DNA from: Pseudodesulfovibrio cashew | GTDB taxonomy: Bacteria > Desulfobacterota > Desulfovibrionia > Desulfovibrionales > Desulfovibrionaceae | DNA length: 64,000 bases | Direction of reading: 5' to 3' | Assembly: GCF_009762795.1 (NCBI RefSeq) | Contig: NZ_CP046400.1 | Location: forward strand, 1,837,501-1,901,500 | Shown here: positions 13,101 through 34,386 of the stretch, one piece after another | How the letters are laid out: each line of letters begins with the position of its first letter | How positions within the stretch are numbered: the stretch's first letter is position 1 | The notes under the pieces: model-generated | The model's input: the letters and a program-made list of their open reading frames with translations, nothing else | Told to the model about the DNA's origin: nothing | Databases searched by the model: none | Translations under genes and position numbers: made by a program

Positions 13101-13850
13101 TGCGCGCCGATGGCGCGAGAGCCGGGTTTGGGGGCTGCGCCCCCAAAAGCCCTCCATGCCCTCCCGGCGGGGTCCATTTCTTTTGCTGCGCCAAAAGAAA
13201 TAGACGAAAGAAAAGGCGCTTGAAGCGTTATCACCGCCCCGGTGCTCGCTGGCGAGAATCTCATCCAACCCGGTCGGCTCCAGACTACGTGGAGCGGAAC
13301 GCCCTGCCAATTTTACCGTACGTAGGCCGTCCCACTCCGTGCGAGTTCTGGCACAAGAGCCACCGCCCGGTTTGGTGAGCTTCTAGGCCCGTGAGCAAGG
13401 GGCTGACTGCGGACCTTTGAGAAGGAAGTCGTAGCGCCGAATTGCTTCTTTTTGATTCGTAATGGGGTGTCAACTCGGATTGATGGGCGAGGACAAGCTG
13501 CCCTTATAGCATAACAGGGTGTCAGCTCGACTTGGCGGACAAAGAAGAATTGCCTTGTTCGGTAAGCTACCAATCATCCAGGCAGCGACCTGTCATCGAG
13601 TTCGGGGCTTAGAGCCGCTTGCACACGGCTGAAGCGCAGCCCGAAGCGCGCCTGCCCGCAGGCTTTCGCTTTTCGGGCAGCGGAAGCCGTGTTAGCGGCT
13701 CTTGGCCTCGAAATCGCGCTGCAGCACCAACAGAGCGACTTTTGCTTACTTTTGGGCGCTCCGGTCCAAAAGTAAGTCGCCCCGGAAGGGGCGAAACCCT
13801 TCATCCAATCATCGCCGCCGACAGGCGGCTTCCTTTTCTCTTCTTCTCCC
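13101..13850 (+). repeat. Long interspersed hairpin-rich repeat, copy 1
   Basis: About 750 bp with no convincing gene that is colinear with the reverse complement of 33519-34260. The two outer thirds are strongly conserved, and about 120 bp in the middle (13441-13560) are not. It holds a series of hairpins: TTGGGGGCTGCGCCCCCAA near 13128, ATTTCTTTTG/CAAAAGAAAT (13176-13201), CTTACTTTTGG/CCAAAAGTAAG (13745-13776), CGCCCC-GGAA-GGGGCG and GCCGCC-GACA-GGCGGC. Short ORFs starting MHTAEAQPEARLPAG occur in both copies, but they simply follow the conserved DNA, have no upstream ribosome site, and read through hairpins. I therefore treat the region as a non-coding structured repeat. Confidence 0.8.
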
Positions 13851-33293: not shown

Positions 33294-34386
33294 GTCTTAT
33301 TACTCCATGGGAAATGGTGAAGAGTCAGGAAGTAGGACTTTTTTTGGCGGTTGGCAAGGGTGAGGGGTGGAGGGTGCCTGCGGCGCGGCCCGAGAGCCGG
33401 TGTTGGAGCGTACCGCTCCAACAGCCTCCAGGGTTCGCGCTTGCCGTGCGGTTGAGGCGTTTTGTTCGAAATGACAGGCTCCAGCGTAGCATTTGGTGAA
33501 CGTCGGGACTGAGGGAGGTGGGAAAAGAGAAGAGGAAGCCGCCTGTCGGCGGCAATTGATGGGGAAAGGGTTTCGCCCCTTTCGGGGCGACTTACTTTTG
33601 GACCGGAGCGCCCAAAAGTAAGCAAAAGTCGCTCTGTTGGTGCTGCAGTGCGATCTCGGGACCAAGAGCCGCTAACACGGCTACCGCTGCCCGAAAAGCG
33701 AAAGCCTGCGGGCAGGCGCGCTTCGGGCTGTGCTTCAGCCGTGTGCAAGCGGCTCTAAGCCCCGAGCTCGATGACCGGTCCCAGCCGGGGTGATCGGTAG
33801 CTTGCCGAACGAGGCAACTCTCCTTTGCCTGACAAATTGAGCGATTCTCAGAATCGTAGCAAAGACATCTCTCTCATCCGGCCAAGTCGCGCTGGCTCCT
33901 GCGTACTAATCAGAAAGAAGCAGTCCGGCTCTTCGACTTCCTCTTCGGAGGTCCGCAGTCAGCCCCTTGCTCATGGGCCTAGAAGCTCACCAAACCGGGC
34001 GGCGTCTCTTGTGCCGGAGCACGCACGGAGTCGGACGGCCTACGTACGATAAGCTTGGCAGAGCGTTTCACTCCACGTAGTCCGGAGCCGACCGGGTTGG
34101 ATGAGATTCTCGCCCGAGAGCAGCGGGGCGGAGATGGCGCTCACAGCGACCTTTCTTTGCTACTTTCTTTGGGCGCCGCCAAAGAAAGTAGGCCCGCCCG
34201 GCAGGGCATGGAGGGCTTTTGGGGCGCAGCCCCAACCCCGGCTCTCCGCGCGCTGCAAGCGTGATTCCCGGAGGGGGCGGAGCGGAACGCTCCAACACCG
34301 GCTCTCCGCGCCGCAGGCGCGATCCACCCACCTCGCCGCCGCAGGCGGCATCCCCACCTCTTCAGGGGCAGCGGGCCCACCCGCCT
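33294..34386. other. 1.1-kb intergenic region filled by hairpin repeats
   Basis: Between the FAD/Fe-S gene and the serA-like gene there is no supportable gene. It consists of the long repeat copy 2 (33519-34260), flanked by shorter related hairpin units: GTTGGAGCG-TAC-CGCTCCAAC at about 33410-33431 and GGAGCG-GAA-CGCTCC near 34279-34293, plus CGCGCC-TGC-GGCGCG and GCCGCC-TGC-GGCGGC close to serA. Apparent ORFs here follow repeat DNA. Confidence 0.75.
33519..34260 (-). repeat. Long interspersed hairpin-rich repeat, copy 2 (inverted)
   Basis: Reverse complement of copy 1 (13101-13850) with the same order of blocks. The CTTACTTTTGG/CCAAAAGTAAG hairpin is identical (33591-33622). The other hairpin reads CTACTTTCTTTGG/CCAAAGAAAGTAG (34160-34191) where copy 1 has ATTTCTTTTG/CAAAAGAAAT, so both stem strands changed together. 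The central ~120 bp differ. Two copies face each other across about 20 kb. Confidence 0.82.

Follow-up and report, generated by a model that had tools for sequence, protein, structure and literature searches.

Locus and repeat family

In the window (the whole 64,000-nucleotide stretch of DNA analyzed here), a repeat of about 0.7 kb occurs twice, in opposite orientations. Copy A is flanked by a small plus-strand ORF without a Pfam match and by a convergent aminotransferase gene, and copy B is flanked by the genes for a serA-like D-2-hydroxyacid dehydrogenase, which carries an ACT domain, and for a large FAD/Fe-S oxidoreductase. The initial annotation described the two copies as keeping the same series of hairpins, which is borne out by two long inverted matches, complementary at 90% and 84%.

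13122..13843 (about), + strand: copy A (core, running from its 5' end on the left to its 3' end on the right), in a gap between convergent genes; from the 20-copy alignment
33519..34240 (about), - strand: copy B, in the gap separating two minus-strand genes
33390..33432, no strand assigned: accessory outer hairpin repeat GTTGGAGCG...CGCTCCAACACCGGCTCTC, adjoining copy B; motif confined in this genome to the neighborhood of copies

As the initial annotation had proposed, copies were collected from the genome and its relatives, and further ones exist. The complete 3.91-Mb genome of this Pseudodesulfovibrio carries 20 near-complete and about 4 partial copies, with the remaining near-full copies being 73 to 88% identical to copy A. 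Genes neighboring these elements include groEL, alaS, serS, acs, flgE, nrdD, recQ, cobQ, and the gene for cysteinyl-tRNA synthetase. Accessory hairpin repeats of the GAGAGCCGGTGTTGGAGCG type (34270 to 34330 and 33390 to 33432 in the window) occur in this genome only beside element copies. An insertion of ~50 nt (GCGGTAGCCGTTGGCGAGTC...AGCAGAGC) is common to three of the copies (L011, near 0.947 Mb; L020, near 1.426 Mb; and L023, near 0.237 Mb), where it lies within the 3'-hairpin loop and takes the place of the inner part of the 3' arm. One fetched locus (L063; G000:C1:585000-600000) gives a GC reading of 0.19, probably from N letters in part of the stretch.

The ORFs inside the element have no Pfam match, and no conserved reading frame or protein family was found among them. 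No Rfam 15 family scored above its gathering score for the element, and topic and sequence-word searches of the literature found no description of it. No Rfam family, Pfam protein, or literature match explains the repeat, and no named element with its layout was found; the initial annotation had likewise offered none.

Architecture of the element

Alignments of the 20 copies and of those from relatives reveal that each end contains, from the outside inward, an outer hairpin, a short GC hairpin (CCCTCCCGGCGGGG or CGCCCC-GNAA-GGGGCG), a hairpin of 11 to 12 bp, a purine tract, and a loop-complementary segment. The 5' arm of the 11- to 12-bp hairpin is pyrimidine, and its loop is complementary to the short segment just inside, a pairing that would give the end the form of an H-type pseudoknot on paper; we call the ends pseudoknot-like. 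The features of the two copies are as follows.

13130..13144, + strand: 5'-end outer (alpha) hairpin GGGGGCTGCGCCCCC, copy A; from the alignment of copies
13159..13172, + strand: 5'-end beta hairpin CCCTCCCGGCGGGG, copy A; near-invariant across 29 aligned 5' ends
13176..13201, + strand: 5'-end stem S1, ATTTCTTTTG (13176-13185) / CAAAAGAAAT (13192-13201), loop CTGCGC, copy A
13215..13219, + strand: GGCGC, the 5'-loop partner (S2; loop GCGCC, 13188-13192), copy A; covaries across copies and species
13375..13390, + strand: most conserved internal motif, GTGAGCTTCTAGGCCC, copy A; from the 20-copy alignment, with a similar motif in relatives
13611..13702, + strand: large internal hairpin AGAGCCGC...GCGGCTCT, copy A; from alignment and folding
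13733..13737, + strand: GAGCG, the 3'-loop partner (S2; loop CGCTC, 13757-13761), copy A; double changes at 5/6 pairs, 82.8% paired
13745..13776, + strand: 3'-end stem S1, CTTACTTTTGG/CCAAAAGTAAG, copy A; 97.2% of cells paired, with double changes
13778..13793, + strand: 3'-end beta hairpin CGCCCC-GGAA-GGGGCG, copy A
13814..13843, + strand: outer (alpha) hairpin GCCGCC-GACA-GGCGGC with pyrimidine tail, copy A; terminator-like
34160..34191, - strand: 5' stem, CTACTTTCTTTGG (34179-34191) / CCAAAGAAAGTAG (34160-34172), copy B
33591..33622, - strand: 3' stem CTTACTTTTGG/CCAAAAGTAAG, copy B
33574..33589, - strand: beta hairpin CGCCCC-GAAA-GGGGCG, copy B

The covariance model of the 3' end matches 5' ends on the opposite strand, and vice versa, which indicates that both ends represent a single module in inverted orientation. 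An end module measures about 60 to 110 nt and a unit about 0.3 to 0.7 kb. Each element is built from a single structured unit that is paired with its inverted copy, either once or repeatedly in an array. In the arrays of G010, a run of left modules (one to several) precedes a run of right modules (likewise one to several; three and three at L127), those of G002 have one left module with up to three right modules, and in G005 and G015 the units are arranged head-to-tail. No triple helix is claimed for the mirror-repeat purine tracts beside the stems, as the variants read by eye include both mirror and direct repeats.

Maintenance of the fold

Compared with dinucleotide shuffles, copy A folds strongly both as RNA (z of -6.6 for the plus strand and -7.7 for the minus strand) and as DNA (z of -7.1). 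The complementarity of the ends largely persists while their letters change. Among modules of this genome and of relative loci, 80 distinct S1 arm pairs occur, 50 of them with perfect complementarity; distinct loop-partner words with a length of 5 nt or more number 37. A loop-partner match is present in 50% of 171 distinct modules, versus 14% with the partners shuffled and 3% with the letters shuffled. Among 29 three-prime ends, 88.8% of cells are paired, versus 77.6% when shuffled (0/500) and 40 to 52% when the partner is slid, and double changes number 67 versus 23 in the shuffles. A stem alignment across families reaches 99.4% paired versus 86.8% shuffled, although it was drawn from modules recognized as hairpins and thus leans toward pairing.

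The initial annotation read covariation, and with it selection on the folded form, from two differences between copies A and B. Both exist exactly as described: a stem changed on both sides (ATTTCTTTTG/CAAAAGAAAT in copy A against CTACTTTCTTTGG/CCAAAGAAAGTAG in copy B) and GGAA against GAAA in the loop of CGCCCC/GGGGCG. However, the 5' stems of the two copies represent two end-module types that recur in the other 18 full copies, and in this genome the two types combine freely with at least four different 3' types. Because both types recur and mix freely among copies, the stem difference is a module swap and not a single compensatory mutation. The wider claim rests instead on the many self-complementary variants within and between species. 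Covariation exceeds chance, and the alignments indicate that the fold is maintained, including the pairing of the loop with the inner segment, which had not been part of the earlier description. Selection on the fold is likely, but template-switch correction at replication could also keep part of the complementarity of short-loop hairpins with no selection acting on a product.

Distribution among relatives

The genome sample comprised 25 Pseudodesulfovibrio genomes, including the one under study and, among its relatives, a Pseudodesulfovibrio pelocollis contig, together with 16 genomes from other genera. The element was found by blastn in 19 of the 25 genus genomes and in none of the 16 others. 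Models R2 and R3 together detect its ends in 24 of the 25, with only G012 lacking any, which shows that at least one species can do without the element. Copy number in the genus is lowest in G012 (0) and highest in G001 (61 model hits). Farther afield, model R1 detects four genomes from other families of the phylum Desulfobacterota, two of them with many copies, and model R3 detects ends in 30/395 genomes of the phylum, the weaker ones being uncertain. Pairing between the loop and the inner segment recurs (TGGCC, CGGCC, and TGCCC) in several families from which the model had drawn no sequences, and the loci that were read (L284 to L293) have an unchanged layout with different letters.

In a genome of another family (G282; L287, 1180-1560), a 0.35-kb element with two inverted ends appears by eye to adjoin a tRNA gene directly. 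In G022, many element ends fall no more than about 1 kb from the start of a contig (C1, C12, C15, C16, C26, C29, C31, C35, and C36), which suggests that the repeats interrupt the draft assembly of this genome.

No match to the element was found in phages or plasmids, and an origin from either was rejected on that basis. The 3' hairpin pattern has no match in viral contigs. The beta-hairpin pattern is present in two of them, and one of these, L092, gives a score with the 5'-end model as well; there, a 5' end module lies at 62-156 on the minus strand of an 8.2-kb contig from the viral collection that may be a misfiled host fragment. A Pseudomonas-like hairpin matched nothing in plasmids.

Chromosomal placement

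In the genome under study, dnaA lies at 1.138 Mb, coinciding with a sign change in GC skew, and none of the 20 full copies lies more than 0.86 Mb away; the two copies farthest from dnaA are partial. Across nine complete genomes, the 157 element clusters have a median position near one quarter of the distance from dnaA to the terminus. Of these clusters, 87% fall in the half nearer the origin, and the 20% nearest the terminus has none. Counted per tenth from dnaA outward, they number 18, 37, 38, 25, 19, 11, 7, 2, 0, and 0 (Kolmogorov-Smirnov P of about 8e-21), with dnaA serving as the origin marker for every genome and GC skew checked in the one under study. The origin bias could partly reflect steadier gene order near the origin.

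A bias toward one replichore, suspected from the coordinates, gave way to origin-centered clustering after dnaA and GC skew had been located, and a fixed orientation relative to replication was rejected (65/111 co-oriented; P = 0.09). A hairpin repeat meant as an unrelated control for origin bias was found only beside elements and was thus unusable. In each of the 11 complete genomes searched, another protein with a DnaA C-terminal domain is encoded a long way from the marker dnaA (e.g., G000:C1:2661134).

Apart from two apparent exceptions (L146 and L239), the elements lie between genes. Convergent gaps are enriched (odds ratio, 3.0; P = 5e-6) and divergent gaps are depleted (odds ratio, 0.41; P = 0.003); gene calls are missing for 28 sites, mostly in G024. 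A terminator-like site precedes the element at 29 of 47 gene 3' ends that face one, versus 16 of 57 other 3' ends.

Site conservation and within-genome homogenization

Many sites are shared between species. Among genes flanking elements in the genome under study, 15/43 have homologues that flank elements elsewhere, versus 7/98 random origin-proximal genes (P = 8e-5) and 9/54 other genes of the same loci (P = 0.06). At shared sites, the gene side is the same in 55 cases versus 11, and the orientation is the same in 34 and different in 18, although these pairs are not independent. The flgE site has an identical orientation in all nine genomes with a resolvable end pair; G022 has two right-type ends there, and 12 of 17 additionally searched genomes have no element at this site. 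The terminator of flgE itself precedes the element and is kept in genomes without one. In G001 and G017, the site is empty, with flanks too diverged to place the boundaries.

Copies within a genome average 76 to 84% identity, versus 51 to 59% between genomes. Elements at orthologous sites in G010 and G002 are 50 to 66% identical, no better than nonorthologous ones, and their flanking proteins are 83 to 95% identical. Copies thus resemble those of their own genome and not their orthologues, a pattern that suggests either concerted evolution or repeated insertion into the same sites. Of the two, concerted evolution is favored by the orientation conserved at flgE.

Proposed role and alternative explanations

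The data fit a long-kept, DNA-level chromosomal repeat better than a mobile element or an RNA gene. The reading that we favor, at a little less than even odds, is that the element is a non-coding, multi-copy, intergenic, vertically kept chromosomal repeat of the broad REP/BIME kind. Its copies would be mostly inherited in place, with recombination or gene conversion probably keeping them alike. The element may act at the DNA level: in transcriptionally quiet, origin-proximal spacers it would form hairpins or cruciforms, and it might take up supercoiling or be bound by a candidate protein of topology, the nucleoid, or segregation. As a side effect, stray transcription may be halted by the outer hairpins. 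This reading is weakened by the absence of the element from G012, by the differing orientations at some shared sites, and by the chance that steadier gene order near the origin accounts for part of the origin bias.

It is rather unlikely, though still worth weighing, that the element is a non-autonomous transposon (MITE or foldback-like) with inverted ends recognized by a putative transposase and copies piling up in tolerated intergenic spots. Inverted ends, multiple copies, tandem and inverted arrays, intergenic placement, and species-specific amplification are all consistent with such an element. However, its sites and its flgE orientation are common to several species, it is excluded from the terminus, and it has no phage or plasmid matches. 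In addition, the Y1/RAYT transposase domain (PF01797) is absent from the genome under study in a search that included positive controls, which led us to reject mobilization by such an enzyme, and neither a gene-bearing version nor an autonomous relative with a transposase between the same ends was seen in the fetched loci.

An improbable alternative is that the copies are structured non-coding RNA genes whose ends are RNA pseudoknots. Strong folding, covariation, and the pseudoknot-like ends would suit such genes, whereas inverted symmetric ends and head-to-head arrays suit DNA better, and no Rfam family matches. Non-canonical stem cells comprise 11 of the A-C type and 8 of the G-T type, so an RNA-type wobble signature was not seen, and no sigma-70-like promoter was found near copy A. 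The missing G-T excess and promoter, along with the frequent position of elements beyond their neighbors' own terminators, lean toward action at the DNA rather than the RNA level but are not decisive.

Least probable of all is a role as bidirectional transcription terminators or insulators between adjacent genes. The element has intrinsic-terminator features (a GC hairpin and then a T tract, or T-rich arm, at each end read inward), copy A is surrounded by 8 terminator-like sites versus 1.7 expected, and convergent gaps are enriched. However, a neighboring gene often ends in a terminator of its own ahead of the element, a structure of 0.5 to 2 kb far exceeds what a terminator needs, and the origin clustering would be left unexplained.

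A bolder extension of the chromosomal-repeat reading, which we consider doubtful, is that these repeats form a new class of chromosome-organizing element, with ends that take the form of pseudoknots or cruciforms. Such repeats would mark the origin side, be excluded from the terminus, be held at fixed sites by concerted evolution, and be served by a putative dedicated DNA-structure-binding protein. Dispersed bacterial repeats are usually taken for selfish debris or REP-like clutter. Here is a family that keeps its fold while its letters change, occupies gene-end sites often common to species, is homogenized within each genome, and avoids the terminus. It makes testable what maintains interspersed repeats in bacteria and whether hairpin-forming DNA helps define the origin side of the chromosome. 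In practice, the three models built here can be used to annotate such repeats.

Comparison with known systems

SlmA- and Noc-binding sites are short protein-binding palindromes that are scattered on the origin side and absent near the terminus. The element is similarly scattered and similarly missing near the terminus but is a long structured repeat whose binder is putative.

MITEs and modular repeats such as Correia, ERIC, and BOX have inverted ends and are non-coding, multi-copy, and modular. The element shares these traits, with terminal inverted repeats evident from the cross-matching of its two end models. It differs in its shared sites and within-genome homogenization, in the conservation of an end fold without conserved sequence, and in its exclusion from the terminus.

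Unexplained multi-copy intergenic sequences, some with inverted-repeat ends, have been reported for the related bacteria Geobacter metallireducens and Pelobacter carbinolicus (PMC2700814, PMC3543383). As far as their published descriptions go, they were catalogued without the architecture, placement, or evolution seen here (PMC2700814, PMC3543383).

The element also resembles REP, BIME, and REPIN sequences in being intergenic, hairpin-based, arranged in inverted pairs, present in many copies, promoter-avoiding, and located at gene 3' ends. Its units, however, span 0.3 to 0.7 kb and have pseudoknot-like ends, whereas REP units are palindromes of 20 to 40 nt. Its genome lacks a Y1/RAYT transposase, and it often lies beyond terminators, clusters around the origin, and occupies orthologous sites. 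By analogy, we infer that the element works like a REP/BIME-type chromosomal repeat at a much larger scale, without itself being a REP.
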